64,000 nucleotides of DNA from Baylisascaris procyonis (taxonomy: Eukaryota > Nematoda > Chromadorea > Rhabditida > Ascarididae): positions 868,001-932,000 of the forward strand of contig JAZARR010000172.1 of NCBI GenBank assembly GCA_037389465.1, in the 5' to 3' direction. Shown in pieces: positions 1-60,156 of the stretch. Each line of letters opens with the position of its first letter. The stretch's first letter is position 1. The notes under the pieces are model-generated. The model worked only from the letters and a program-made list of their open reading frames with translations, was not told where the DNA came from and did not search any database. The translations under genes and the position numbers were made by a program.

Positions 1-40
1 CAGGGTAATACTGCTATATTATAAAAGAAAGCGAGTTGTT

Positions 41-112
41 TGCCTCATGCTGGAATCGAACCAGCGGCCTTGTGTTTACTAGACAGACGCTCTGTCCCTG
101 AGCCGATGAGGC
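41..112 (-). tRNA. tRNA-Thr(AGT), copy 1, slightly damaged
   Basis: Cloverleaf read on the minus strand with anticodon loop CTAGTAA. C28 faces C42 in the anticodon stem and the normally invariant U8 is C, so function is doubtful. Confidence 0.65.
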
Positions 113-187
113 GGATGGTTCAACGTCACGTGCATAACGCTCAGAGTCAGGGTAATATCGCTATATTATAAAAGAACGTGAGTTGTT

Positions 188-259
188 TGCCTCATGCTGG
201 AATCGAACCAGCGGCCTTCTGTTTACTAGACAGACGCTCTGCCTCTGAGCCAATGAGGC
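188..259 (-). tRNA. tRNA-Thr(AGT), copy 2, intact
   Basis: Reference copy for the array. Acceptor stem GCCTCAT/ATGAGGC (7 of 7 pairs), D arm GCTC-AGAGGCA-GAGC, anticodon arm TCTGT-CTAGTAA-ACAGA, five-base variable region AGGCC, T arm GCTGG-TTCGATT-CCAGC, discriminator A. The loop gives U33, anticodon AGT (34-36), A37, reading ACU. Pairs G1-C72 and C2-G71 and bases G35-U36 fit known threonyl-tRNA identity elements. No intron, no encoded CCA, as expected for a eukaryotic nuclear tRNA. Confidence 0.93.
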
Positions 260-334
260 GGGTGGTTCAATGTCACGTGCATCACGCTCAGAGTCAGGAT
301 AATGTCACTTTATTATAAAAGAACGTGAGTTCTT

Positions 335-406
335 TGCCGCATGCTGGAATCGAACCAGCGGCCTTCTGTTAATGTGACAGACGCTCTGCCCCTGAGCCAA
401 GGAGGC
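335..406 (-). pseudogene. tRNA-Thr-derived pseudogene, copy 3
   Basis: Acceptor stem has two mismatches (T4-C69, C6-T67). The anticodon loop has changed to CACATTA, so U33 is lost and the nominal anticodon would be CAT. B box is still perfect. Confidence 0.85.
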
Positions 407-481
407 ACACGGTTCAACGTCAGCTGCATCACGCTCAGAGTCAGGGTAATATCGATATATCATAAAAGAAAGTGAGTTGTT

Positions 482-553
482 TGCTTCATGCTGGAATCGA
501 ACCAGCGGCCTTCTGTTTACTAGGCAGACGCTCTGCCCCTGAGCCAATGAGGC
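482..553 (-). tRNA. tRNA-Thr(AGT)-like, copy 4, damaged
   Basis: Loop CTAGTAA kept. C3-A70 in the acceptor stem and C31-A39 at the top of the anticodon stem are mismatched; probably weak or inactive. Confidence 0.6.
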
Positions 554-628
554 GGATGGTTCAACGTCACGTGCATCACGCTCACAGTCAGGGTAATATC
601 ACTGTATTATAAAAGAGCGTGAGTTGTT

Positions 629-700
629 TGCCTCATGCTCGAATCGAACCAGCGGCCTTCTGTTTACTAGACAGACGCTCTGCCTCTGAGCCAATGAGGT
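629..700 (-). tRNA. tRNA-Thr(AGT)-like, copy 5, damaged
   Basis: First base pair is broken (A1-C72) and the T stem has G52-G62. Loss of G1-C72 removes a threonine identity pair. Copy 7 shares both changes. Confidence 0.55.
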
Positions 701-775
701 CCATGGTTCAACGTCGCGTGCATCACGCTCAGAGTCAGGGTAATATCGCTATATTATAAAAGAAAGTGAGTTGTT

Positions 776-847
776 TGCCTCATGCTGGAATCGAACCAGC
801 GGCCTTCTGTTTACTAGGCAGACGCTCTGCCCCTGAGCCAATGAGGC
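776..847 (-). tRNA. tRNA-Thr(AGT), copy 6
   Basis: All stems intact apart from a C31-A39 mismatch next to the anticodon loop CTAGTAA. A and B boxes are good. Confidence 0.75.
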
Positions 848-922
848 GGATGGTTCAACGTCACGTGCATCACGCTCACACTCAGGGTAATATCACTGTA
901 TTATAAAAGAGCATGAGTTGTT

Positions 923-994
923 TGCCTCATGCTCGAATCGAACCAGCGGCCTTCTGTTTACTAGACAGACGCTCTGCCTCTGAGCCAATGAGGT
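923..994 (-). tRNA. tRNA-Thr(AGT)-like, copy 7, damaged
   Basis: Carries the same A1-C72 and G52-G62 mismatches as copy 5, 294 bp away, showing that these two units come from one ancestral unit. Confidence 0.55.
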
Positions 995-1069
995 CCATGT
1001 TTCAACGTCGCGTGCATCACGCTCAGAGTCAGGGTAATATCGCTATATTATAAAAGAAAGTGAGTTGTT

Positions 1070-1141
1070 TGCCTCATGCTGGAATCGGACCGGCGGCCTT
1101 CTGTTTACTAGGCAGACGCTCTGCCCCTGAGCCAATGAGGC
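1070..1141 (-). tRNA. tRNA-Thr(AGT)-like, copy 8, damaged
   Basis: C31-A39 and C51-A63 mismatches, and the T loop reads TCCGATT so base 55 is C and the B box is altered. Probably not transcribed well. Confidence 0.55.
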
Positions 1142-1216
1142 ACATGGTTCAACGTCAGCTGCATCACGCTCAGAGGCAAAGTAATATCGCTGTGTTATAA
1201 AAGAACGTGAGTTGTT

Positions 1217-1288
1217 TGCCTCATGCTGGAATCGAACCAGCGGCCTTCTGTTTACGAGACAGACGCTCTGCCTCTGAGCCAATGAGGC
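1217..1288 (-). tRNA. tRNA-Thr(CGT), copy 9, intact
   Basis: Every stem pairs, and the anticodon loop is CTCGTAA, giving CGT for codon ACG. It differs from copy 2 only at wobble position 34 (A to C). Confidence 0.9.
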
Positions 1289-1363
1289 AGATGGCGCACC
1301 ATCAGGTGGATTACGTTCAAAGTCAGGGAAATATCATTGTGTTGGAAAATGACGTGAGTTGTT

Positions 1364-1435
1364 TGCCTCATGCTGTAATCGAACCAGCTTCCTTCTGTTT
1401 ACGAGACAGACGCTCTGCACCTGAGCCAATGAGGC
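1364..1435 (-). tRNA. tRNA-Thr(CGT)-like, copy 10, damaged
   Basis: Second CGT copy. G53-A61 in the T stem is mismatched, which also breaks the B box (ending TTAC), and the variable region is AGGAA. The spacer to its left is more diverged than average. Confidence 0.6.
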
Positions 1436-1510
1436 ACATGGTTCAACGTCAGCTGCATCACGCTCAGAGGCAGGGTAAGATCGCTGTATTATAAAAGAAC
1501 GTGAGTTCTT

Positions 1511-1582
1511 TGCCTCATGCTGGAATCGAACCAGCGGCCTTCTGTTTACTAGACAGACGCTCTGTCCCTGAGCCGATGAGGC
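1511..1582 (-). tRNA. tRNA-Thr(AGT), copy 11, C8 subtype
   Basis: All stems intact. U8 is C and the D loop is AGGGACA, the signature of a subfamily shared with copies 14, 17 and 23. Confidence 0.75.
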
Positions 1583-1657
1583 GGATGGTTCAACGTCACG
1601 TGCATAACGCTCAGAGTCAGGGTAATATCGCTATATTATAAAAGAACGTGAGTTGTT

Positions 1658-1729
1658 TGCCTCAGGCTGGAATCGGACCAGCGGCCTTCTGTTTACTAGA
1701 CAGACGCTCTGCCTCTGAGCCAATGAGGC
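1658..1729 (-). tRNA. tRNA-Thr(AGT)-like, copy 12, damaged
   Basis: T7-C66 mismatch at the base of the acceptor stem and C at T-loop position 55. Other stems intact. Confidence 0.6.
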
Positions 1730-1802
1730 CAATGGTGCTGCATCAGGTGCATTAGGATCAAAGTCATGGTAACATCGTGCTGGTGGATAGAGTGTAAGCT
1801 GT

Positions 1803-1874
1803 TGGCTCATGCTGGAATCGAACCAGCGGCCTTCTGTTTACAAGACTGACGCTCTGCCCCTGAGCCAATGAGGC
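1803..1874 (-). tRNA. tRNA-Thr(TGT)-like, copy 13, damaged
   Basis: Loop CTTGTAA gives anticodon TGT. C2-C71 destroys an identity pair and A29-A41 is mismatched. It follows a 145-bp step with a distinct spacer (gctgcatcaggtgcat type). Confidence 0.6.
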
Positions 1875-1949
1875 GGATGGTTCAACGTCACGTGCATCAC
1901 GCTCAGAGTCAGGGTAATATCGCTATATTATAAAAGAAAGTGAGTTGTT

Positions 1950-2021
1950 TGCCTCATGCTGGAATCGAACCAGCGGCCTTCTGTTTACTAGACAGACGCT
2001 CTGTCCCTGAGCCGATGAGGC
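1950..2021 (-). tRNA. tRNA-Thr(AGT), copy 14, C8 subtype
   Basis: Stems intact, C8 and D loop AGGGACA as in copy 11. Confidence 0.75.
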
Positions 2022-2096
2022 GGATGGTTCAACGTCACGTGCATAACGCTCAGAGTCAGGGTAATATCGCTATATTATAAAAGAACGTGAGTTGTT

Positions 2097-2168
2097 TGCC
2101 TCATGGTGGAATCGAACCAGCGACCTTCTGTTTACTAGACAGACGCTCTGCCTCTGAGCCAATGAGGC
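2097..2168 (-). tRNA. tRNA-Thr(AGT)-like, copy 15
   Basis: C50-C64 mismatch in the T stem and a changed variable region. First unit of the 880-bp higher-order repeat; repeated as copy 21. Confidence 0.65.
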
Positions 2169-2241
2169 CAATGGTGCTGCATCAGGTGCATCAGGATCAA
2201 AGTCATGGTAACATCGTGATGGTGGATAGAGTGTAAGCTGT

Positions 2242-2313
2242 TGGCTCATGCTGGAATCGAACCAGCGGCCTTCTGTTTACAAGACAGACGCTCTGCCCCT
2301 GAGCCAATGAGGC
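2242..2313 (-). tRNA. tRNA-Thr(TGT)-like, copy 16
   Basis: Anticodon TGT, C2-C71 mismatch, 145-bp step and variant spacer. Repeated as copy 22. Confidence 0.65.
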
Positions 2314-2388
2314 CCATGGTTCAACGTCACGTGCATCACGCTCAGAGTCAGGGTAATATTGCTATATTATAAAAGAAAGCGAGTTGTT

Positions 2389-2460
2389 TGCCTCATGCTG
2401 GAATCGAACCAGCGGCCTTCTGTTTACTAGACAGACGCTCTGTCCCTGAGCCGATGAGGC
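2389..2460 (-). tRNA. tRNA-Thr(AGT), copy 17, C8 subtype
   Basis: Stems intact, C8. Its surroundings match copy 1 (plus-strand ataaaagaaagcgag flank) and copy 23. Confidence 0.75.
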
Positions 2461-2535
2461 GGATGGTTCAACGTCACGTGCATAACGCTCAGAGTCAGGG
2501 TAATATCGCTATATTATAAAAGAACGTGAGTTGTT

Positions 2536-2607
2536 TGCCTCATGCTGGAATCGAACCAGCGGCCTTCTGTTTACTAGACAGACGCTCTGCCTCTGAGCCA
2601 ATGAGGC
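2536..2607 (-). tRNA. tRNA-Thr(AGT), copy 18, intact
   Basis: Identical to reference copy 2 over all 72 bases; repeated as copy 24. Confidence 0.92.
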
Positions 2608-2682
2608 GGGTGGTTCAATGTCACGTGCATCACGCTCAGAGTCAGGATAATGTCACTTTATTATAAAAGAACGTGAGTTCTT

Positions 2683-2754
2683 TGCCGCATGCTGGAATCG
2701 AACCAGCGGCCTTCTGTTTACAAGACAGACGCTCTGTCCCTGAGCCGATGAGGC
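2683..2754 (-). tRNA. tRNA-Thr(TGT)-like, copy 19
   Basis: Anticodon TGT with C8 and a T4-C69 acceptor mismatch; repeated as copy 25. Confidence 0.6.
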
Positions 2755-2829
2755 GGATGGTTCAACGTCACGTGCATAACGCTCAGAGTCAGGGTAATAT
2801 CGCTATATTATAAAAGAACGTGAGTTGTT

Positions 2830-2901
2830 TGCCTCATGCTGGAATCGAACCAGCGGCCTTCTGTTTACAAGACAGACGCTCTGCCCCTGAGCCAATGAGG
2901 C
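2830..2901 (-). tRNA. tRNA-Thr(TGT), copy 20, intact
   Basis: All stems pair; loop CTTGTAA gives TGT for codon ACA. D loop AGGGGCA. Best candidate, with copy 26, for a working TGT isoacceptor. Confidence 0.9.
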
Positions 2902-2976
2902 GGATGGTTCAACGTCACGTGCATCACGCTCAGAGTCAGGGTAATATCGCTATATTATAAAAGAACGTGAGTTGTT

Positions 2977-3048
2977 TGCCTCATGGTGGAATCGAACCAG
3001 CGACCTTCTGTTTACTAGACAGACGCTCTGCCTCTGAGCCAATGAGGC
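2977..3048 (-). tRNA. tRNA-Thr(AGT)-like, copy 21
   Basis: Exact repeat of copy 15, including the C50-C64 mismatch; start of the second 880-bp block. Confidence 0.65.
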
Positions 3049-3121
3049 CAATGGTGCTGCATCAGGTGCATCAGGATCAAAGTCATGGTAACATCGTGAT
3101 GGTGGATAGAGTGTAAGCTGT

Positions 3122-3193
3122 TGGCTCATGCTGGAATCGAACCAGCGGCCTTCTGTTTACAAGACAGACGCTCTGCCCCTGAGCCAATGAGGC
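3122..3193 (-). tRNA. tRNA-Thr(TGT)-like, copy 22
   Basis: Repeat of copy 16: TGT, C2-C71, preceded by the 145-bp step. Confidence 0.65.
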
Positions 3194-3268
3194 CCATGGT
3201 TCAACGTCACGTGCATCACGCTCAGAGTCAGGGTAATATTGCTATATTATAAAAGAAAGCGAGTTGTT

Positions 3269-3340
3269 TGCCTCATGCTGGAATCGAACCAGCGGCCTTC
3301 TGTTTACTAGACAGACGCTCTGTCCCTGAGCCGATGAGGC
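3269..3340 (-). tRNA. tRNA-Thr(AGT), copy 23, C8 subtype
   Basis: Repeat of copy 17; stems intact, C8. Confidence 0.75.
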
Positions 3341-3415
3341 GGATGGTTCAACGTCACGTGCATAACGCTCAGAGTCAGGGTAATATCGCTATATTATAAA
3401 AGAACGTGAGTTGTT

Positions 3416-3487
3416 TGCCTCATGCTGGAATCGAACCAGCGGCCTTCTGTTTACTAGACAGACGCTCTGCCTCTGAGCCAATGAGGC
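3416..3487 (-). tRNA. tRNA-Thr(AGT), copy 24, intact
   Basis: Repeat of copy 18, no deviation from the reference cloverleaf. Confidence 0.92.
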
Positions 3488-3562
3488 GGGTGGTTCAATG
3501 TCACGTGCATCACGCTCAGAGTCAGGATAATGTCACTTTATTATAAAAGAACGTGAGTTCTT

Positions 3563-3634
3563 TGCCGCATGCTGGAATCGAACCAGCGGCCTTCTGTTTA
3601 CAAGACAGACGCTCTGTCCCTGAGCCGATGAGGC
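3563..3634 (-). tRNA. tRNA-Thr(TGT)-like, copy 25
   Basis: Repeat of copy 19: TGT, C8, T4-C69. Confidence 0.6.
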
Positions 3635-3709
3635 GGATGGTTCAACGTCACGTGCATAACGCTCAGAGTCAGGGTAATATCGCTATATTATAAAAGAACG
3701 TGAGTTGTT

Positions 3710-3781
3710 TGCCTCATGCTGGAATCGAACCAGCGGCCTTCTGTTTACAAGACAGACGCTCTGCCCCTGAGCCAATGAGGC
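3710..3781 (-). tRNA. tRNA-Thr(TGT), copy 26, intact
   Basis: Repeat of copy 20, all stems paired. The spacer beyond it differs from the first block by one base (cataacg for catcacg). Confidence 0.9.
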
Positions 3782-3856
3782 GGATGGTTCAACGTCACGT
3801 GCATAACGCTCAGAGTCAGGGTAATATCGCTATATTATAAAAGAACGTGAGTTGTT

Positions 3857-3928
3857 TGCCTCATGCTGGAATCGAACCAGCGGCCTTCTGTTTACTAGAC
3901 AGACGCTCTGCCCCTGAGCCAATGAGGC
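3857..3928 (-). tRNA. tRNA-Thr(AGT), copy 27, intact
   Basis: Full cloverleaf with D loop AGGGGCA instead of AGAGGCA. Confidence 0.92.
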
Positions 3929-4003
3929 GGGTGGTTCAATGTCACGTGCATCACGCTCAGAGTCAGGGTAATATTGCTATATTATAAAAGAAAGCGAGTT
4001 GTT

Positions 4004-4075
4004 TGCCTCATGCTGGAATCGAGCCAGCGGCCTTCTGCTTACTAGACAGACGCTCTGTCCCTGAGCCGATGAGGC
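4004..4075 (-). tRNA. tRNA-Thr(AGT)-like, copy 28
   Basis: C8, T-loop position 54 changed to C, and a U31-G39 wobble pair. Stems otherwise hold. Confidence 0.6.
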
Positions 4076-4150
4076 GGATGGTTCAACGTCACGTGCATAA
4101 CGCTCAGAGTCAGGGTAATATCGCTATATTATAAAAGAACGTGAGTTGTT

Positions 4151-4222
4151 TGCCTCAGGCTGGAATCGGACCGGCGGCCTTCTGTTTACTAGACAGACGC
4201 TCTGCGTCTGAGCCAATGAGGC
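4151..4222 (-). tRNA. tRNA-Thr(AGT)-like, copy 29, damaged
   Basis: T7-C66 and C51-A63 mismatches plus C55; resembles copy 12 with further decay. Confidence 0.55.
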
Positions 4223-4295
4223 CAATGGTGCTGCATCAGGTGCATTAGGATCAAAGTCATGGTAACATCGTGGTGGTGGATAGAGTGTAAGCTGT

Positions 4296-4367
4296 TGGCT
4301 CATGCTGGAATCGAACCAGCCGCCTTCTGTTTACAAGACTGACGCTCTGCCCCTGAGCCAATGAGGC
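4296..4367 (-). tRNA. tRNA-Thr(TGT)-like, copy 30, damaged
   Basis: C2-C71 and A29-A41 mismatches as in copy 13, with the same 145-bp spacer type. Confidence 0.55.
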
Positions 4368-4442
4368 GGATGGTTCAACGTCACGTGCATCACGCTCAGA
4401 GTCAGGGTAATATCGCTATATTATAAAAGAAAGTGAGTTGTT

Positions 4443-4514
4443 TGCCTCATGCTGGAATCGAACCTGCGGCCTTCTGTTTACTAGACAGACGCTCTGCCCC
4501 TGAGCCAATGAGGC
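4443..4514 (-). tRNA. tRNA-Thr(AGT)-like, copy 31
   Basis: A51-A63 mismatch in the T stem; anticodon arm and acceptor stem are good. Confidence 0.65.
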
Positions 4515-4589
4515 GGATTCTTTCAACGTCACGTGCATCACGCTCAGAGTCAGGATAATATCGCTGTATAATAAAAGAACGTCAATTTT

Positions 4590-6259
4590 TCGCCACATGC
4601 TTTAATCGACCCGGCGACCTTTTGTTTGCTAGACTAGTTGCATTTTACACGAAGCTATACATATGAAACTTGTCTACGAATCCTACTCTACCGATTTAAA
4701 GAAAATTGCATCAAAATTGGTCCATTTTTAGCCGAGATATCAGATGGGTCAGTTAAAAAGCGCGTGAGGTGGCGCGCGCGCCTTCACGCAGCCGCCTCGG
4801 CCGCGCCCACGTCATGCGGAGCCAATGACTCAAGACCGTATCCAAATTCGTCCATCCTTAACCGAGATATCCTCTTCGGTAGTTGTTGCTATGCTGCGCG
4901 CACACACTGTGTCTGCGCGCAGCACTGCACGGCTATTTTCACCTTACTCGTATTATGTTGAGTGCAATGTTCAAAACCGCATCCAAATTGGGCCATTTAG
5001 AGTCGAGATACAATCCTATTCAAAGAACGTATCCACAATAGGTGTTGAATCCAATTTCCGCAAGTTTTGTGGACCGAACCCTCCCTCTGATCCCCGTCTG
5101 GTACATCGGGACCCAACTAATCACTGTTTTGAGGAAGAACCCGAAAAAGATTAATTTAAATCGAAAAAGCGTGAGATCGAAGCGAAAAAGTTTTTCTAAA
5201 AATATCGTAAGGGGTCCCTCAGCAGCGGCAAAATGCGATATTGCGGGTTCCACAACTCGGTCAATTCTGAATGAATTTGAAATTTTCAACCTCCATTCAA
5301 GTAAACTCGATGAGTTCTCATCAAGCATCAAGAGTCGGATTGTGGTAACTTGAACCCGTGCTGAGATACGGGGTCGTCGAAAACGGCAAAATCGTGATTT
5401 TGGGAATTCTGGTGGAACGACTCGCGTAGGGGGTGAGCACCATTTTGGGTCGTGTGATATATCTTCGGGTACTACTCGCTATTCCAAGGTCACTGGAGTT
5501 GTTTTCAACCCTCTACGATCAACGAGTGGCGAGAAATCGGCCCCGCAATTTTAGGCCCCATAGTTAAGAGTGATAATTGCATATTGCAAGTACCACAACA
5601 CGGTGAAATTACTTTAATTCAATAAATTGGACTACCCATGTACATAACTTTTGATTGCCTATCGAATGAGCATATGTATGCGAAAATCCGCCGACTCATT
5701 CTCGACCTATAACACCCCCTCAAACCCGCCCCCCCCCCAACTAATAACTTTTCGAAAGTAAATTAAAATTAAATGATAAGGTTAAAATCCACTTTGAACA
5801 CTGAGTCCGCAAAGTTCCTGAAAGCTTGAAAAAAATTGATTCATTCAAACTCGAGTTATTCGAGATTGAAGTTTCAGTTCAGTGGGAATGGTACCTTCAC
5901 GGGGTTTATTTCACTATCCCCCTTCAATTTTACAACTTTTGGCCCACCCCTACAAGAAACAAATGCTAGAAGGAGTAGAATAAAAAAGAATTAGAAAAAA
6001 TGAATAATTCTCAAAAGAGATATAGCATTTCAGTGTTAACTATGAAATTTCAGTATTTTTGAAGTTTAAGGAAATTTAAAATTCGAAACATATCCAAAAA
6101 CTATAGGTGTGTGGAGATCGTGAATACCAAAAGAATAAAAAAAAGAAATTGGAAAATTTTAAATTTTAACGAAAGATATCATCGGAAATGACAAAATAAG
6201 TTAGTGATAACAGATTCTATATATAATAGACAGACGCTCCGCCTCTGAGCCAATGAGGC
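4590..6259 (-). pseudogene. tRNA-Thr copy 32 split by an insertion
   Basis: The 3' half (4590-4634) and the 5' half (6227-6259) of one diverged tRNA are separated by 1,592 bp. Both halves overlap in TAGAC (4630-4634 and 6227-6231), which lies in and beside the anticodon loop. The right half ends at 6259 and the next unit starts at 6335, the same 76-bp step seen throughout the array, so the array was once continuous across this point. Confidence 0.85.
4635..6226. mobile_element. 1.59-kb insertion in the tRNA array, 5-bp target duplication
   Basis: The segment is flanked by direct TAGAC and has nothing in common with the array. I see no terminal inverted repeat, poly-A tail or transposase-like frame, so the class is unknown; it is probably non-autonomous. 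Inside are three diverged copies of a ~35-bp motif around AAATTGGTCCATTTTTAG / CCGAGATATC (4708-4742, 4837-4872, 4979-5013), a GC-rich CG-repeat patch at 4765-4925, and a second duplicated motif (ATATTGC...CCACAAC.CGGT) at 5231-5264 and 5573-5610. Gene-like frames here look like chance. Confidence 0.7.
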
Positions 6260-6334
6260 AGGCGGGGCAAGAAAAGGTTCAGGACGCTAAGGTCAAAGCA
6301 GTATCTATTGTGTTGGAAAAGAACGTGAATTGTT

Positions 6335-6406
6335 TGCTTCATGCTGGAATCGAACCAGCGGCCTTCTGTTTACAAGGCGGACTCCGTGCAAGCGAGCTAA
6401 TGAGGC
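6335..6406 (-). pseudogene. tRNA-Thr(TGT)-derived pseudogene
   Basis: B box and T arm survive; loop gives TGT, but the anticodon stem and D arm no longer pair. Confidence 0.8.
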
Positions 6407-6481
6407 ACCTGGTGCAAGATCGGATGCAGGAAGCTCAAAGTCAGAGTAATATCATTGTGTTGCAAAATAACGTGTGCAGTT

Positions 6482-6553
6482 TGCTTCATGCTGGAATCGA
6501 ACCAGCGGCCTTCAGTTTACGAGAATGACGCTCCGCCCCTGAGCCATTGAGGT
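6482..6553 (-). pseudogene. tRNA-Thr(CGT)-derived pseudogene
   Basis: T arm intact, anticodon loop CTCGTAA, one mismatch in the anticodon stem (T30-C40), acceptor ends degraded (tacctc / gaagc). Confidence 0.75.
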
Positions 6554-6625
6554 ACATGTTGCAACATCAGTTCCATTACGGTCAAAGTCAGAGGAATATC
6601 ATTCTGTTGGAAAAGAATTCAACTG

Positions 6626-6697
6626 TGCCTCATGGTAGCATAGAGCTAGAGACCTCCTGTATGTAAGGCAGAAGCTCTGCCTCCGAGCGAATGACGC
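6626..6697 (-). pseudogene. tRNA-derived pseudogene, heavily decayed
   Basis: Aligns to the array unit at the expected 144-bp step, but T arm, acceptor and anticodon arm are all disrupted (loop CTTACAT). Confidence 0.7.
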
Positions 6698-6773
6698 AAA
6701 TGACAGGAGATCAGGAGCAGGACGCTAAAGGTCAAAGTAATATCTATTGTCTTCGAAAGGAATGTGAACTGTA

Positions 6774-6844
6774 CGCCTCGTGCTGCAATCGAACCAGCGC
6801 CTTCTGTTTACCAGACAGACGCTCTGCCCCCGAGCCAATGAGGC
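6774..6844 (-). pseudogene. tRNA-Thr(GGT)-like copy
   Basis: Last recognisable unit. Anticodon stem TCTGT/ACAGA is intact around loop CTGGTAA, giving GGT, an anticodon eukaryotes normally replace with AGT. One base is missing from the variable region and the T stem has a mismatch, so it is probably not functional. Confidence 0.75.
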
Positions 6845-9337
6845 ACATGATGTTAGGTCAGGGGCACTCGTATTGCATCAAACGCACGTAGATTTATCAC
6901 GCAACAAGTTGCGAAGAAAGAAATTTTCTTTCGGAAACTTTTCTTCATGAACGCAAGAAATTTCTGAAGGTTCGCGCAACAAAGCAATACAAACAATACA
7001 AAAGAAAAAATCACAAAAAAAACGATCTCACTCTATATGAACGCATTTTCGATGGCGACCGTGAAACTTCGCGGCTCTAATGACGTTTTCCTCAGTTTGC
7101 TCGGCAACATATCAAAATGTTTATTGAACGATTCAACATACAGAACCGAGTACTTTATGATTAACTTGTTTTACTGGACGTAAACTGCATATGGTGCATG
7201 ATAAAGTCGTTTCATGAACAGCGTATTATTTGGAACCCTTCTCATATGTAAATAAACTCTGAACGCTTTGCTGATGTAATGTTGAAATAAACAAAGTGTG
7301 GTCAATGAGAAGCTTGCATTCTCTGTTGATCCTGATCGTAAGGGAGCAAAGATTGATAAAAGAATGGGAAAAACCAATCGATTCCTGTCTTCCCTCTATC
7401 CCAGCTTCTAAAATTTTGTCTGCTAACGCTTCGCAACGATCAAGCTCATTCAGCAGTCGCATGGAATAGAAGAAACATTGAAGGTGCTATCAATATTTTC
7501 TTGCTGGCATTTTAACGCTTTTATTCATGTTTTTTTTTCGGATTTTTGATCTCGTTTACGCTATTAAGGAGCAATAAAATTCTATCCTTTTATTTATCTG
7601 CCTATCTAGTTAAAGGCCGTTAACTTAGGTAATCAAAACAAACATTGCATCACGGTAAATAAGCTGAAAATGAGCGTGTCAGCTGAGTCATTAACCGATT
7701 TTGAAGTGTTAGTTTCATAAAAGATATTTTGAAGCAAACATATCAACATGGAATAAAATTTTATTCAAATAATCAAGCTACTGTACATTACGCTCTTCAA
7801 TAAGCTGCTCCACTGATAACACAATTTGAGCATTGGTGTGATGCCGAGATTCATCTGATGAGGGTGCGTGAGATCTGAAAAGTGCGAGATAATGGCAGTT
7901 TTACACGATCTTTTTCTTCAAATTGCATATAAGCATATCACCTTGTTTCAAAAAATGTTTCGCTGCTTCACTTCACACTAACTCATTGGTGGTGTATAAT
8001 GCGCTATTCCACAAATTTTGTTAATTTTGTACCATATGCATCCACAGTCATCCATATCCTGAAATGTTTTCAATGAATTTCCACCTGTTCAACCTCCACA
8101 AGCATTCTGTTAACGCAACGACCAAAAGAATTGTGAAGATTCTGAAAATGCGAAATCCCGCTGGCATAGAATGGCGGTAGAAGTAAAAGAGGGCGATGGA
8201 GCTGAGAAAGCTCTTCAGTAGAACAAATACTCGTTGTGCTTATATATGACAAGAATGGACGGTGAACTTTTATGCATTTTGCGTCATGCCACTGAATGTA
8301 TCACAGCCTTTGTAGTTATTGCAGTCGAAACAGATATCTAGTGCAGAAAACTCAGGCGTCTTATCATTTATTACACTCATCTTCCTATTGACAACTGCAT
8401 TAAATTATTGTCAAAACGGAATATGTAACTAAACCGTTACTGCTTTTCACACAAAAGTTCCTCAATGAATGCGTTCTTAACAACCATGGCGCAATAGCAC
8501 ATCCTGTCAATCTCAGGTGGCACCAATCGCTGCATTTTTTCAAGGCCGTCGCAATCTTTTATTCAATTCAGCGATCACGCCCACTAGAACTGAAAATCTC
8601 CAACTGTCTTTCGAAGAGAACTGGAACAGATATACGTTGCGCTCTTGGACAGATATCCGGAATAATCAAAGTGCTTGTATAATCGCCAGAGGGTGTCCGA
8701 TTCTGCTACGTCTGAGTCTCGCTAAAGCAGAGTCGCAGGCTACTTCTCTATCCGTAGCGCTAAATGCGCATTCAAAAGTTCCTCCATGAGATATTTGCTT
8801 CAAAATATGCATTATGAGTGTGATTTCGGTAGTTAGGCTGTTTGACCAGGTGGCAGTTTGAACACGCTAGCGGCTATAGAAAAAAAATGTGACTTTATGA
8901 ATTTCCAGCATACTTACTTTAAGCCATCGAATAAAGAAAGCATGGAAGCTCACGTGTCAGGAAGTGAATGTGTTCTTCGAAGATAACGACTACTCTGAGG
9001 TTCCTCTTGCCTTATACTCGATACTGCGGGGGTATTATGTTCATATGTTGGAGGTACTCGATCTGAAGCAATATTTCACTTAAAACAAAAAGTCTTATTA
9101 TCACGTACACTTGAGCTTTCCACTTCCCAGCGTTCTCTTCCTCCTCTCATTCGGCAAAGAAAGTCGCGAGCCGACCCGAAAATAGTGTGAAAGAGAAAGA
9201 GATAGAAAATCAAACATGAAAAGAGCAAATAAGAGCAGGAAATTGCAAAAGCAAGAGAAAGCATCATGTCAGTGTAAGGAAAACAGAGCGCTTTCAAAAT
9301 TTTTTCGGAGCGGTTTCTTTCCAACAACAAAACGTTT
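6845..9337. other. Intergenic, no supported gene
   Basis: AT-rich. A minus-strand open stretch at 7380-7490 reads LLNELDRCEALADKILEAG with an acceptor-like TAG before it, but I found no partner exon. Plus frames at 8517-8789 look like chance. Confidence 0.5.
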
Positions 9338-37518: not shown

Positions 37519-40064
37519 ATGTTCCTACAAATTGTCGTTTTATTTTACGTCTTCCATTGTGGTTTCGCCATAGGTAAGACTTCTTTGCGATATTTCATCT
37601 GATTGAATGACTGCATTGCGCAATACGTCATTTTTCTATGTTCTATTCTATTCGTTTATTATGTAGGGTATTTGTGCCATTGTCGAGAAATGAAGTAAAT
37701 AGTGCAGTTTTTTATTTTCTATGATATGGAAAGATCGAAATCGGTTGAAATTTACGTTATGTCAGCCAAAGAATTTGCTCACTGCTTTGTCAACTTGAAT
37801 CGGCAACAATGTGCTTCAAAGAGTTTACAATTTTTTGCGAGCGCATTATCGAGGACTGAGGACAGGAAGGATGGGGATTAATTTTTAGAAGAGGAGATAT
37901 TTCTTTAAACCTCAAAAGACTTTCTCGGATATTTCAGCAATTGAAACTTTCAAGGAATATATGTTCTGAGGCTTAATATCTTTCGCTTGATCAATTATCT
38001 AGAGAGAGAGAGAGTTTAAAATGTTTGATGATCCACGTTCACGTCGTATGATCCAACCTAATATGATTTCCCATTCGCTTAGTGAAAGAAATCTTTTATT
38101 TGCAAAACTTTAAGGTTTTTTTCTTTTCTAATTTTCAAATGTTCTTTTAATATGACAGTAAGTAAGTATTCACCTTCAGAGTGCACTCTAACTAAAGATA
38201 GCGGATTCGAGTGTGATCAACAACAACCATCGACAAATTTTTACTTTGATACGAGAACAGGTAAGAGAATTTGCGCTGATACGACGGCAGGTAAGCTTGA
38301 TTTGCAAACTTATTCCACTTTCACAATCACTGTTTATTTAACTATTTAAGTTCTTCAATGAAAGCAAATTCTATAACTTCAAAATTATTTATTTACAGGC
38401 AGCTTTATTTTTAAGCAAAAATATATATTTTAGTTCGTCGAAAAATATGCGACAGCAAGAAACAATTGATCAAAACATCGTTTAAGAAATAAAAAATTCC
38501 TAATTACCGTTGTTCGTTCATATATGCGTTCTTTATAGGAAGCGATAAACATGAGCTACTATACGAATTTATTTGCGTATTTCATTTCAACTCACTCGAC
38601 CGCTGATTACTCTTTTACTAGTCGAAGAGAAAATATGAAAAATACACTTCAAAATAAAGCGTGATTATATTGCCACCCTAATTTGATTGGCCTATAACAG
38701 TTTATAAAATTATTATAATTGAAACAATCTTAGTAGGAAGTAAAACACAAGGATAGTTTTCGTAGGTGTATGTCAACCGTTTCAATATGCTGGTTGTGGC
38801 GGCAATGGCAATCGCTTTGCTACGTCGACGGTATGCCGCAAACAATGCAACGATGAAACAATTCGCCTTCTAAAGGAGTCAAATATAGATGAGAATCGGT
38901 TGCTTATAACCTACGGTAATTTATCACAGTTTTACAGTAGCCAAGAGATAATCTTCTCACCATTATATTCGCAGAACTTGCAAGTTTGTATGAAATTTTA
39001 CACAATGAGTGGGATAAGGAAGTCGTACTCAACAAGACTATCTTATTCTAACACAAATTATTGCAATATAATTCATTTTCTTTATGAATTGTCTTGACCA
39101 AGAGCTAATCCATTCAAGCTTGACAAGAAGATCAGCTGCAACTATTTGAACTCAGCTAGAAACACGACGACTACTTGAATGGGGTTATTTGTTTTTAATT
39201 GAATACGATCACTCAGAGAGGACTTCCACAATGAAATGAATCAAAATGCTTCCGATTTACTATAAAAGCAGAAAAATCTGACATCCATTTGTTCCAGATA
39301 TTTTGAATTTCCTCAAATGTATTGCTCGTATTCATTTTCCCTGTTACAGAATCGATTTGTAATATTTCATTCTCGGCCTACGCGAAACATGAGTCTAAAA
39401 AATGCATGAAGAAATCTTGTCCAGCAGGATATAAGTGCGCCAAGGAATACTGCTGTCCCTCTAAAGGTAACTGAATTGTTGTTTCACTCACTGAAGGTAA
39501 ATAAATCTATTTTTTACCCTCTAGAAGTAACTAAGTTATTATTTTATAGACTAAAAATAATTAGATTATTATTTGACTCTCTAAATCAATTAACATTATT
39601 TCTTTACCCTCTAAAGATAATTGATATCGTTAATCCAATATAAATTGATCGTTTATGAAATAAATAATTCATGCAGACTTTTTGCAATCACCGCCAACGT
39701 TCAGGCCAGTAATCTCTCTCTATTACTTGTCAAATATTTGTATAAAGTATATTTAAAAGAATAAATTTTACACACGTTTTCGCTGAATAAAAAATGATTA
39801 AACAATATTTCCATTTTTTTCATTACTGAAATTTTTCTACCGTTGAAATAACTGTTGGGTGGAAGAAATAGTTATTTAGAGATGATCTGCTCGCAGATCT
39901 ATGACTCAGGACATGAGCTAATTGCAACGGATATGAAACACATTCGCAGATATGCCTACAACAAGGATTTCCGGATTTGTAATCGATTCTCATATTTTGG
40001 TAATGCTGGAAACTTCAATAACTTTCCTGATTGGCATACATGTATGAATTTTTGTGCCGAATGA
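37519..40064 (+). CDS. Secreted Kunitz / lustrin-type / Kunitz-like protein
   Basis: Five exons join in phase: 37519-37573, 38159-38260, 38766-38915, 39350-39466, 39880-40064, giving 202 residues. Exon 1 is a signal peptide (MFLQIVVLFYVFHCGFA). Exons 2-3 form a Kunitz domain with all six Cys in the usual spacing and CGGNGNRF before Cys5. Exon 4 is a lustrin-type Cys-rich module (KSCPAGYKCAKEYCCPS). Exon 5 is a second Kunitz-like domain with only four Cys: Cys2 and Cys4 are both absent (CNRFSYFGNAGNFNNF). Known: Kunitz domains usually inhibit serine proteases; Kunitz-lustrin mosaics are common in nematode secretions and cuticle. A second donor 30 nt downstream in exon 2 (38290) stays in frame. 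The P1 residue and target cannot be inferred safely. Confidence 0.85.
39458..39640 (+). repeat. Diverged minisatellite grown from a splice donor
   Basis: The exon 4 end CCCTCTAAAGGTAACTGAAT is echoed at about 39519 (ccctctagaagtaactaag) and 39609 (ccctctaaagataattg), with partial copies between, all inside the last intron. Confidence 0.6.
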
Positions 40065-56072: not shown

Positions 56073-58152
56073 TTCTTCGTAGTTTAATTAACCCAACCTA
56101 GCCGCTGCACAAATTGCAAAGAGATTTTTTCCCACATTTAAATGCTTGATAAATGGTCTTAAAGTTCACTGATCGTCCTGAAATATGGTACTTGAGCTGA
56201 TTCTGTGGTATACTTTATGTAATGCAAATATTACAGCCCAATTTCAGTCCTTTAATTTGGAATTACCACACACATAGGTAGATATAATTAAAAAGACATA
56301 GGCAATGCTGCCTTTATGTACATTTGGGATGAAACTGACTCCAGAACGTCCCGTTACCTATTATTCACATCAAGCAAGCTCGATTTAAAAAAGCTTGAAT
56401 TTGCTTCACTCAGTAAGCCCTTAGGAGTCAAATACGTGAATCCTATCCCATAGCATGTAATAAGCAATCAAAGAATGCATTAGGCAAACCATTTAGCGCA
56501 GCAGTATAGAATTCTATCAAGGCCCATAGACTTTATTGAGGACATTTCTGCCGTTCAAATCATCCAACAGGAACAGCCGAAAGCCTTCAAGTAAAACAGC
56601 GCACACAGTTTCCTGCTACACCTTCCTTTGGTCACAATCATGACCTCAAGAATGCTATGCGAGTGTATCCTTCCCTCAACTTTGAAAGGCTTTCTGGTTG
56701 TTACACCTATAATAGTCGGTGTTACACCTGTTGCAACCTTTATACTTAGAGCAGTTAAGAAGCAATTCGTTTCATTGCAATAATCAAGGTGTAAACACTG
56801 AATAAATGACGGCAAAAGATCCGTAAAACTAGCTTCATCCTCCCACCTTCCTCTTTGTCAACTGCAACAACGGAGCAGCTTCGCCGTTACGCGAATGGAT
56901 GCAGTTAGCACAACATTAGATCACCACTAACATAACTCTGCGATAAAGGAAGAAGGGCCCAATGAGATCGTTTAGGTTAGATCCGGTTCCCCAAATGGGA
57001 TCACCTCGAACCTTAATCCCATATCCAAGTACCAATTATATTAGGTCAAACAGGCGATGCTGAGTGGAATGCAACGACCAGATTGGATACCCGACAACAT
57101 TCGCCTTTCTCAACAGGCCTTGTAACGAAATTGAGCATCACCAAAAACAAATCGAAATAACACCTCCACCCCCACGCCCTTAATCTCGCCCCCCCCCCCC
57201 ATCCGATGGTTGCATCACATAAACACAACGCCATAATAGTTTTTTTCCCGCGCGCTATGCCCCCAGGCAAAGTGCCAAATTCGAAATGGTATTGTCTCAA
57301 ATCATCTTTTCGTTGAGGGACTCAAAAAATGAAGCGAAAAGTTGCGATACAAACTACCAGAAAATGAGGGTATTGCCTGTTCGTTTACTAATAATTACTA
57401 GTATCGCTTCGATCATTCATTAATAATTACTTGTATAACTTGGGCCGATGCCATACTACAGATGTTGTGTACAATCCGTCAGATCAAAAGAAGTGAATAC
57501 TGAAGTTAATAAATAAACGAATAAATTAAACTATATGCATATGATCTACTTGTTGTTTATTAGTGGAAAGATTTCAACGCTTAAAGTAACCACACTAGAA
57601 AATACAGATACGGAGTCGAACCGTGTCGCGATTCGATTCCATATCGGTATTCACAATGGGCAATGCGAACACTGTAGTTCCATTGATGCGAGCATCAAAA
57701 ATCTCCTCACAAAACGCCACCTGACCAACGATATGCTCGACATTACGAGGACGCACTAAATACCAATTCCAACGTTTAATTCCGTAACAATTTTTGCTTC
57801 ACAAGGTGGAATGTCGTTAGTACACTTTAAAGCACCCATTCGCCTCACTACACAAGTCCAATACCGTCTACCTCACTTACTTCTATTCGTTTCCTATTTT
57901 TCGCTTCCTTAAAGGTGCTTTCCCTTGATACGTCCTTGCAAGCACACTCGAAAGCACCACAGTGCAAGACCACCTGCACCGCGACCGATAAAATTGACGC
58001 TCTGAGTTGCGAAAGGTTTGTTATGCGTCACAAATAAAACGTCTGAGTAAGCGTTGATTTATTCTCGATCATCAGATTTGTAAGTAAAGATCAGTGGATG
58101 GATAAACGCGCCGAATGAAGACCGCAATAGACAACGCCTCGGTCGATTTGCC
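55405..58152. other. Intergenic with GC-richer repeat-like blocks
   Basis: 56330-57310 and 57590-57760 are visibly richer in G and C than their surroundings and hold long minus-strand frames (for example RPRNVEHIVGQVAF at 57755-57600) without ATG or recognisable domain; they may be old interspersed repeats. A C13 run lies near 57190. Confidence 0.4.
56003..56071. repeat. (AT)n microsatellite, ~69 bp
   Basis: Uninterrupted AT dinucleotides. Confidence 0.97.
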
Positions 58153-58284
58153 TCATTTTGAAGGCGATTTGCCACCTGCGAGATTGTCTTGCGCTTTTGC
58201 GATTGCTTTGTCCAAATATCCCATTTGATATGCAATTCCAGTGCCAATTATAGCCGCGATAAATAGAATCATTGCTGGACCCAT
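58153..58284 (-). CDS. Micropeptide, 43 residues, one membrane helix
   Basis: Single exon from ATG at 58284 to TGA. Residues 3-20 are hydrophobic (PAMILFIAAIIGTGIAYQ), followed by GYLD and a short amphipathic, Lys/Gln-containing end. It is paralogous to the divergent gene at 58585-58707: 21 of the first 35 residues are identical, including IIGTG-AY-GYLD and AQ--L. A TATAAAAG box lies 97 nt upstream (58388-58381) and AATAAA about 90 nt past the stop (58063-58058). No family recognised; a single-helix regulator or small subunit of a membrane complex is a guess. Overlapping longer frames on both strands are shadows. Confidence 0.8.
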   Translation of the reverse strand: MGPAMILFIAAIIGTGIAYQMGYLDKAIAKAQDNLAGGKSPSK

Positions 58285-58380
58285 TGCGTTCCGATTTCTT
58301 GTACAGTAACGGACGAGAGAGGGATAACTACTTCGTGGACAAAAGTTGGCGAGTGTGATAGGTACCCTGTGAAATTCACG

Positions 58381-58388
58381 CTTTTATA
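58381..58388 (-). promoter_or_regulatory. TATA box of the left micropeptide gene
   Basis: TATAAAAG on the minus strand, placing the start of transcription near 58355 and leaving a ~70-nt leader. Confidence 0.65.
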
Positions 58389-58508
58389 CTCAAATTCTAT
58401 GCAAATTTTGTACAATTAACACTTTTCTGGTAATTCCTTACAAATGTTAATTATAAACTTTGTTAAAGGATTTTTGTAAAAATTTGAAATTTACATGATT
58501 CAGAGCAC

Positions 58509-58516
58509 TATAAAAG
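58509..58516 (+). promoter_or_regulatory. TATA box of the right micropeptide gene
   Basis: TATAAAAG on the plus strand, 69 nt before the ATG. It argues that the in-frame upstream ATG at 58495 is not used, because that codon lies before the box. Confidence 0.65.
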
Positions 58517-58584
58517 AACTGTCGAAAGCGGTCGAATGCAGTGTATATTTATCCCTCCCCAAACGAATTGTCACACCGATCGAG

Positions 58585-58707
58585 ATGGGTGCTGCTCTTC
58601 TTCTAATATTGGCTGTCATCATCGGCACTGGAGTCGCCTATCATCTTGGTTATCTGGATCCATACATCGCACAGGCACAAGAACAACTAAAGGCGAAACA
58701 AGGATAA
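58585..58707 (+). CDS. Micropeptide, 40 residues, one membrane helix
   Basis: Single exon, ATG at 58585, stop TAA, AATAAA at 58814-58819. Hydrophobic residues 3-21 (AALLLILAVIIGTGVAYHL), then GYLDPYIAQAQEQLKAKQG. Start chosen because it aligns with the start of the divergent paralogue and lies downstream of its own TATA box; a 30-residue N-terminal extension is open but does not resemble the partner. The conserved substitutions between the two copies (V/I, L/M, H/Q, E/D) point to selection on the protein. Function unknown. Confidence 0.8.
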   Translation: MGAALLLILAVIIGTGVAYHLGYLDPYIAQAQEQLKAKQG

Positions 58708-60156
58708 ATAATCTCAGCCCGAAGTTCTGACGTCCTTCCATCTACCTCGCTTCTGATGCCGCATTGCGATCTAACGGTCACAATCATATTCCACATGCTA
58801 CTTATCGAAAGCAAATAAATCATTGGAGTGGCTGCAGTAGTTGTCAACACTAATCATTACGACAGAAAGCTTATGCATGTTTCGCATACAGCAGTGATTA
58901 TGAACATTAAGCGATTGGATGACGTGTGGAACAACGTTCTCGTTGAAGTGGTCGTCGAGTTCTGTGTCAGCAAACATGTCCCAATGGCCATTGTTGGTTG
59001 TGTGGTTACGGCCACCGGACTAGGTACAGCGACGGGGGGCAATCTCTTGATTCGCCGAACGGACGTGGAGTCGTACCGCAAATAGGACTAAAACCAAGTC
59101 TAACTCACCACCGCCATTGCTTATGGGTTGGACCCGCCTCAGTGACGATAAGGGCTGAGCTTAATCCCGACCCTAGAAAGCAACGGAACAACCTTGCTGG
59201 CAATCCTGTTCAGGTATGCTCAATAAGATCTCATTTAAATTGTGGCTGTTGTTGTGAGACACAAGTCGGTATACAGCGATGGGTAACTACTTCACACAGT
59301 ATCGTGAACGGTTTCCCTTTGGCCAAGTGCATTCTATCACCAACTATCGTCATTATTTCCGCACAGTCATTACCGAAATATCGCATATTCGAAGATGTTT
59401 AAATGCATTTCTTTGATGAATAATAGGAAAATTTAAAAAAAAAAAAAAACGACGTCCTATAACCTTTTCATCACAAATATAAACGGATGGATGGTAAAGC
59501 GTTAGAATGCCGGACTTCGCTTAATTCTCCATACTTCGATTTTCTTAATCCAATTACAAAAACCAAAAGACCCTCAAAAAAAAAGACGTTGTCGAAAGCT
59601 GCAACTAGCATACCATTGTAAACTCGGTGCATACCTCTTCTATTTTTTGAAAACAATAAACCTAAGCTACGAGGAATTGCAGTTGTCTTTTAAGAAATGA
59701 CCGACCGTCGTCATCGGATGCAATGAAGAATCCTCGAACCATTTGTGTAAAAGAAACAGAAAAAACTTTTTTATTTATCTAAAGTTCTCAACATGAATTT
59801 TGGTATGAACAATTGAAATCGGAAATAGAAAACGTAAGAAAAGAGAATCATCGAGATTCAAAACGTCATTAAATAAACAGTACAAAGCAATCTAGCATAA
59901 AACCAGCATTGAATAAGTTATTCACAATCCATCATGCGACCGTGCACACTACTATCGACAGGTATCGTTGCTGTGAACCGATCGATAACTCCTCTTTTTC
60001 CGTTGAGAACTCGAACAAGCTGGAAGCTGGTTAACGATCAAACACCTACACCTCCCCTCCACTGTGACCACTCTGTACTGTCTAGATAAAACTGTGAATC
60101 ACAATTGCAGCAACAACCAACGACGTCTGTGAAATAAACATGCAGAAGGATAGACT
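58708..60156. other. Intergenic with a GC-richer block
   Basis: 58830-59300 is compositionally different, with long frames on both strands and no recognisable domain; likely an interspersed repeat. The rest is AT-rich, probably including the 3' UTR of the sHSP gene (TTTATT at 59769 is a candidate minus-strand poly-A signal). Confidence 0.4.

Follow-up and report, generated by a model that had tools for sequence, protein, structure and literature searches.

Two open reading frames of 43 and 40 codons lie head to head in the 64-kb stretch of DNA analysed here (64,000 nucleotides; hereafter the window), and raise the question of whether so short a pair represents genes, what these would encode and where they would be transcribed. 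Genes of this size tend to escape annotation.

The head-to-head pair and its paralogues

The minus-strand gene of the pair, W- (58153..58284), is one open frame of 43 codons (58284..58156) followed by a stop (58155..58153), and its plus-strand neighbour, W+ (58585..58707), one of 40 codons (58585..58704) and a stop (58705..58707). A sequence-only reading of the locus had described the two frames as paralogues matching at 21 of 35 aligned residues, separated by 300 bp and each equipped with a TATA box before the ATG and an AATAAA within about 110 nt of the stop, and all of these observations are reproduced: recounting of the first 35 residues again gives 21 identities; the ATG codons are 300 nt apart; the TATA box TATAAAAG starts 104 nt upstream of the W- ATG (58381..58388, minus strand; 96-nt gap) and 76 nt upstream of the W+ ATG (58509..58516, plus strand; 68-nt gap); and the poly(A) signal AATAAA is found 89 nt past the stop of W- (58058..58063, minus strand) and 106 nt past that of W+ (58814..58819, plus strand). 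A longer version of W+ starting from an ATG at 58495 (70 aa) was rejected in favour of the 40-aa reading, since the extension covers the TATA box and is absent from the paralogues.

Protein queries against the whole 272.8-Mb genome reveal three further paralogues, each again a single open frame. These are a 38-aa member on contig C151 (from 2361646 on; hereafter C151) and two members on contig C152, of which C152a (40 aa) maps to the minus strand near 2586078 and C152b (43 aa) to 2577134-2577262. Searches with three different members each returned the same five loci, distributed over three contigs and encoding 38-43 aa; this number is a lower bound, because only the best candidates are scored and single-protein queries favour close relatives. 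The best paralogue match of W+ has an E-value of 4.4e-13, and nine of the 43 alignment columns are invariant across the family (M1, I13, G16, A18, Y19, G22, Y23, L24 and I28). Five other loci that passed the tblastn filter (one viral and four bacterial) were discarded: four of them lie within stop-to-stop frames of 882-884 residues and one within a frame of 127 residues, so that they do not look like micropeptide genes.

The pattern of substitution is that of protein-coding sequence. Over 38 codons, the ten family pairs have pN/pS ratios of 0.17-0.65, with pS near saturation (0.59-0.87) and pN constrained (0.11-0.45). Fisher tests on rounded counts, carried out for three of the ten pairs, indicate a synonymous excess in each (p = 1.4e-7 for W+/C151, 5e-8 for C152a/C152b and 6e-4 for W+/W-), and the differences between W+ and C151 fall on first, second and third codon positions 6, 4 and 18 times, respectively. 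Moreover, when 30 kb around W+ (contig C170) and 30 kb around C151 are compared by blastn (E up to 0.001), the single match is a segment of 113 bases that starts at the ATG and is confined to the coding frame, and in the 60 nt upstream of the ATG only 8-21 positions agree between members in ungapped comparison. In all five, the distance from TATAAA to the ATG is 76-104 nt and that from the stop to AATAAA 89-109 nt. Based on the five paralogues, their pN/pS ratios and the confinement of similarity to the frame, the family consists of real protein-coding micropeptide genes.

No shared neighbourhood accompanies the family members. A six-frame comparison of about 30 kb at the three sites gave, beyond the family itself, only short matches with E-values of 3e-4 to 0.01, and blastn of the same regions added one 42-base match within an AT repeat of the window. 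Trans-splicing was rejected, as TTTCAG is not found between TATA box and ATG in any of the five members. As for the spliced leader itself, SL1 followed by GTAA has 666 exact copies in the genome; among the first hundred or so of these places, tandem arrays were seen on contig C89 from 531940 to 609830 and from 2618513 to at least 2654435, with spacings of about 1.1 kb and 0.87 kb.

Elsewhere in the window, positions 1-4634 and 6233-6849 are occupied by a tandem array with a 147-bp unit (31.6 copies) and about one tRNA gene per unit; ARAGORN detects 31 minus-strand tRNAs in the array (30 tRNA-Thr and one tRNA-Met), to which the second block adds two tRNA-Thr. An exon-sized open frame at 38744-39094 encodes a partial Kunitz/BPTI domain (E 4.9e-8).

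The suggestion that the pair arose by one recent divergent duplication is not supported by the relationships within the family. Over 38 residues, W+ is identical to C151, on another contig, at 31 positions and to its neighbour W- at only 21, which makes the head-to-head pair an old one; W- is the most divergent of the five members, and the lowest pairwise identity in the family is 11/38. Judging from these alignments, W- and W+ are not recent duplicates of each other. Nor is the divergent layout general to the family, for the other clustered pair, C152a and C152b (28/38 identical), is arranged in tandem with a distance of about 9 kb.

Predicted architecture of the micropeptides

In all five members, residues 1-19 are devoid of K, R, D and E and the 19-residue stretch of highest hydropathy (1.86-2.58) begins at residue 1; the polar tail that follows has a net charge of 0 to +2. 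An AlphaFold2 model of W+, built from the sequences of the two window proteins, consists of one helix (residues 4-39) predicted with moderate confidence (mean pLDDT 77.6, pTM 0.32), and a single helix as such says little on function. The predicted properties, 38-43 aa and one hydrophobic helix, are those of single-pass membrane micropeptides, in line with the one-helix membrane-type protein proposed for the pair, and we infer that the family members insert into a membrane. Small residues form a strip along the predicted helix at positions 14 (G/A), 18 (A) and 22 (G), which suggests tight helix packing.

The earlier description of the family as unrecognized also stands, for neither Pfam nor the sequences of the PDB provide a convincing match. 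Pfam searches gave 16.1 and 12.5 bits, below the cut-offs of 27; the best E-value for any member is 0.0099, to the Apicomplexa microprotein family PF23532, and concerns one member of five. Among PDB sequences, the best E-values are 7.4 with W+ and 0.54 with a family profile, neither of which is significant. No papers on the family were found among the literature matches listed, judged by title or abstract opening, and six family-type peptide words retrieved no paper from full-text literature; the family may already be annotated elsewhere.

An octamer-TATA layout common to the micropeptide and MFP2 genes

The TATA box reads TATAAAAG in four members and TATAAAAA in C152a, and is preceded at a nearly fixed distance by an octamer-like box. 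Scored as the match to ATTTGCAT that starts 14-25 bp before the TATA box, the octamer is exact in W- (58399..58406, minus strand; 18 bp upstream), matches at seven of eight positions in W+ (variant ATTTACAT at 58489..58496, plus strand; 20 bp upstream), C151 (19 bp) and C152b (18 bp), and at six of eight in C152a (19 bp). At a threshold of at least 7/8, the box is thus found in four of the five members, which as paralogues are not independent observations, compared to none of 200 other TATAWAR sites taken, irrespective of expression, from about 130 kb of the window and neighbouring loci after removal of the five family sites; 15 of these 200 reach 6/8, and 1.6% of random window positions reach 7/8. 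Alignment on the TATA box places ATTTGC at about -18/-19 in four of the five promoters, and a 6-mer common to four of five promoters within 2 bp was never reached in 2000 simulated first-order Markov sets. C152b additionally carries five exact octamers ATGCAAAT within the 500 bp upstream of its TATA box, which corresponds to 10 per kb compared to 0.25 per kb in the window (16 exact octamers in 64 kb); C151 and C152a have none within 500 bp of the TATA box. GATA sites were rejected as a common element, since WGATAR is scattered among the promoters and not found within 500 bp in C152b.

Genome-wide, the loose pattern ATTTGCN{11,15}TATAAAAG shows no excess, with 110 sites and 110 in a reversed control, so that an ATTTGC-TATA arrangement does not define a broad promoter class; behind the first 30 of these 110 sites, no relative was found. 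The full-octamer pattern ATTTGCATN{9,13}TATAAAAG, by contrast with its reversed control (8 sites), occurs 18 times, and three of the 18 sites belong to W-, to MFP2B and to a second MFP2 gene. Fourteen of the remaining 15 were examined and have no recognizable sperm gene behind them; the fifteenth has the same matched word as another site. At four of the 14 (L071, L072, L073 and L078), an ATG frame of at least 31 codons begins 62-83 nt after the start of the TATA box, and Pfam gave no match above the cut-off for any of them (first 90 of 181 residues in the case of L073). These four frames range from 31 to 181 codons; two are small and basic and one is Asn-rich. The sequence TATAAAAGGAGTG is common to MFP2B, L072 and C152b.

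MFP2B was thus found through the motif, with the TATA box of its exact octamer-TATA site 56 nt before the ATG. Its first exon is identical at 77 of 79 aligned residues to PDB 2bjr, MFP2B from Ascaris suum sperm, and matches the Pfam family PF12150 (MFP2b, 'cytosolic motility protein'). The SL1 copies identify the genome as that of a nematode, and MFP2B points to Ascaris or a close relative. A protein search of the genome with MFP2 yields 14 matches, which include six further loci with a strong N-terminal match; the other seven are weaker, lie nearby and were taken as the second domain. An octamer of at least 7/8 at -18/-19 precedes five of the seven loci (MFP2B, L079, L080, L081 and L084), or four of six when the motif-found MFP2B is left aside. 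The box is absent upstream of L082 and L083; the match at L083 begins after an intron-like acceptor, so that the DNA before it may not be a promoter. L084, with the box ATTTTCAT, has an in-frame TAG. The octamer-TATA layout of the micropeptide genes therefore matches that of MFP2 sperm genes, this one family being the basis of the promoter link to sperm.

The idea that the genome is devoid of sperm genes was rejected in view of its MFP2 genes. A C. elegans MSP query gave six matches, corresponding to one locus in two pieces and four weaker ones, one of which contains a stop. The best locus (L027/L025, C152:3594547-3595127) is split into two exon-sized pieces and carries an in-frame TAG; like the MSP-like loci L028 and L030, it looks degenerate. 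A degenerate word representing DPPCGVLDP, a conserved MSP peptide, matched nothing in the assembly.

A proposed role in spermatogenesis and its alternatives

The main reason for placing the micropeptides in spermatogenesis is that two unrelated gene families have one unusual promoter layout. Our preferred reading, to which we assign a probability of roughly 0.6, is that the genes encode one-helix membrane micropeptides which are transcribed during spermatogenesis from an octamer-TATA promoter and pack with themselves or with a larger protein. In the proposed mechanism, a compact core promoter with an octamer-like ATTTGCAT box 18-20 bp upstream of the TATA box would drive transcription in spermatogenesis, as the promoter DNA leads us to infer. 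The product of 38-43 residues would consist of an uncharged hydrophobic N-terminal helix (approximately residues 3-22) with the small-residue strip G/A14, A18 and G22, an invariant Tyr-Leu after the helix and a polar, likely helical tail. The helix would insert into a sperm membrane, either that of the membranous organelle or the plasma membrane, and pack against itself or a larger membrane protein, while the tail would run along the membrane surface. A role as oligomer or accessory subunit, as well as the organelle of residence, is conjecture, and a POU protein as the factor binding the octamer is a guess from the DNA word. According to the cited accounts, new genes of nematodes are enriched in sperm-related regions (PMC8480184) and, in Ascaris suum sperm, phosphorylation of MFP2 focuses the assembly of MSP filaments (PMC8999757).

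The same membrane micropeptides could instead be expressed in somatic epithelium, either in hypodermis or intestine or, under a CEH-6-like POU factor, in the excretory canal cell, perhaps as small partners of a transporter. CEH-6 is described as acting through ATTTGCAT in the excretory cell of C. elegans, where the ATTTACAT variant is functional too and left expression unchanged in a reporter test (PMC2841177), and TATA boxes of that species belong mostly to hypodermal and intestinal promoters in a study that set aside 151 sperm-specific genes (PMC7706728); the octamer cluster before C152b points in the same direction. However, the C. elegans octamer acts, according to the cited work, at varied distances rather than at a fixed 18-20 bp from a TATA box (PMC2841177), the fixed layout is that of the MFP2 sperm genes, and neither C151 nor C152a has an exact octamer within 500 bp, all of which makes a somatic site of expression unlikely, albeit the most credible of the alternatives. 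Less probable still is that residues 1-18 serve as a signal peptide and are removed by cleavage after the invariant Ala18, which would release a peptide of about 20-25 residues starting with Tyr-x-x-Gly-Tyr-Leu. The short hydrophobic N-terminal run and the invariant small residues at -3 and -1 (Gly16 and Ala18) would suit such processing, but no member has a basic residue before the hydrophobic run, the would-be peptides contain no cysteine and a dibasic pair is found in only one of the five (C152a, near the C-terminus). Signal peptides, moreover, usually vary in sequence, whereas here six of the nine invariant positions (I13, G16, A18, Y19, G22 and Y23) are spread over both sides of the supposed cut; because conservation runs through this site, a cleaved signal peptide, though conceivable, fits less well.

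Many one-helix micropeptides are known from mitochondria and the endoplasmic reticulum, and other animal genes with strong expression can also have an octamer close to the TATA box, so that the family could serve general metabolism in either compartment and resemble MFP2 genes in high expression only. Five diverged paralogues with a special promoter would, however, be unusual for housekeeping subunits, and the lack of a box of at least 7/8 at the 200 other TATA-like sites, which were not chosen for high expression, also speaks against this improbable reading. That the frames are due to chance and have no protein product might be entertained given how common short frames are in the window (27 ATG frames of at least 25 aa in 3 kb); yet five conserved copies, in which synonymous sites are near saturation, other sites are constrained and similarity stops at the frame, together with comparable promoter and poly(A) spacing in all five, refute it in practice.

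Several known systems help to place the spermatogenesis reading. One-helix regulatory micropeptides such as sarcolipin/phospholamban, sarcolamban and mitoregulin are alike in size and in their single hydrophobic helix; the membrane helix of the SERCA regulators among them (sarcolipin, phospholamban and sarcolamban) is C-terminal, unlike that of the present family, whose most hydrophobic stretch begins at residue 1 throughout. MFP2 (MSP fibre protein 2; PDB 2bjr/2bjq, PF12150) is, like the micropeptides, a multigene family of this genome, and in five of seven loci an octamer-like box precedes the TATA box by 18-19 bp, but the protein is larger (345 and 368 residues in the PDB chains), is described as cytosolic and has its matches split over exon-sized frames, so that the promoter alone is common to both. 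SPE-29 is small, at 66 aa. Together with SPE-12 and SPE-19 (PMC4105102) and SPE-56 (PMC13070043), it is described as a sperm membrane protein without known domain that acts in C. elegans spermatid activation and has a mutant phenotype; this is a comparison of how such proteins may work only, and the transmembrane segment of SPE-56 is placed at residues 218-233 (PMC13070043), unlike the N-terminal helix of the present family. The NSPD and NSPF peptides of Caenorhabditis sperm likewise constitute multi-copy nematode families without known molecular function, and their setting, sperm and its membranous organelle, is the one proposed here (PMC6081950). In one C. elegans sperm sample, NSPD is reported to have supplied about half of the protein abundance, and it is credited with 10% of the membranous-organelle proteome (PMC6081950). 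Its described features, 73% disorder, an Asn/Gly repeat and paralogue identities of 81.3-95.3% (PMC6081950), set it apart from a hydrophobic one-helix protein whose members are identical at as few as 11 of 38 residues. C. elegans octamer/POU genes such as aqp-8 use the same DNA word and likewise tolerate the ATTTACAT variant (PMC2841177), unlike the present family in that here the word lies 18-20 bp from the TATA box and is shared with sperm genes.

To the earlier picture of the locus, the analysis adds that the family has five or more members and that its promoters carry, at a near-fixed distance from the TATA box, an octamer-like box also found at MFP2 sperm genes. A wider proposal, to which we give not quite even odds, is that ascaridids have a code for spermatogenesis genes in which a POU-type site is locked 18-20 bp upstream of the TATA box and which would also drive undescribed micropeptides of the sperm membrane; if true, some of the other small frames that follow the 18 exact sites would also belong to the sperm programme. 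To our knowledge, no sperm promoter element has been described in Ascaris; of the literature matches listed on the subject, one dealt with the C. elegans germline and the rest made no mention of Ascaris. In summary, the family provides five selection-backed cases of very short genes. Its promoters point to a concrete rule at the sequence level, open to test, for the sperm genes of a parasitic nematode whose sperm are amoeboid and MSP-based; if the octamer-TATA rule holds, searching the genome with it could uncover more sperm peptides and membrane components that annotation has missed.
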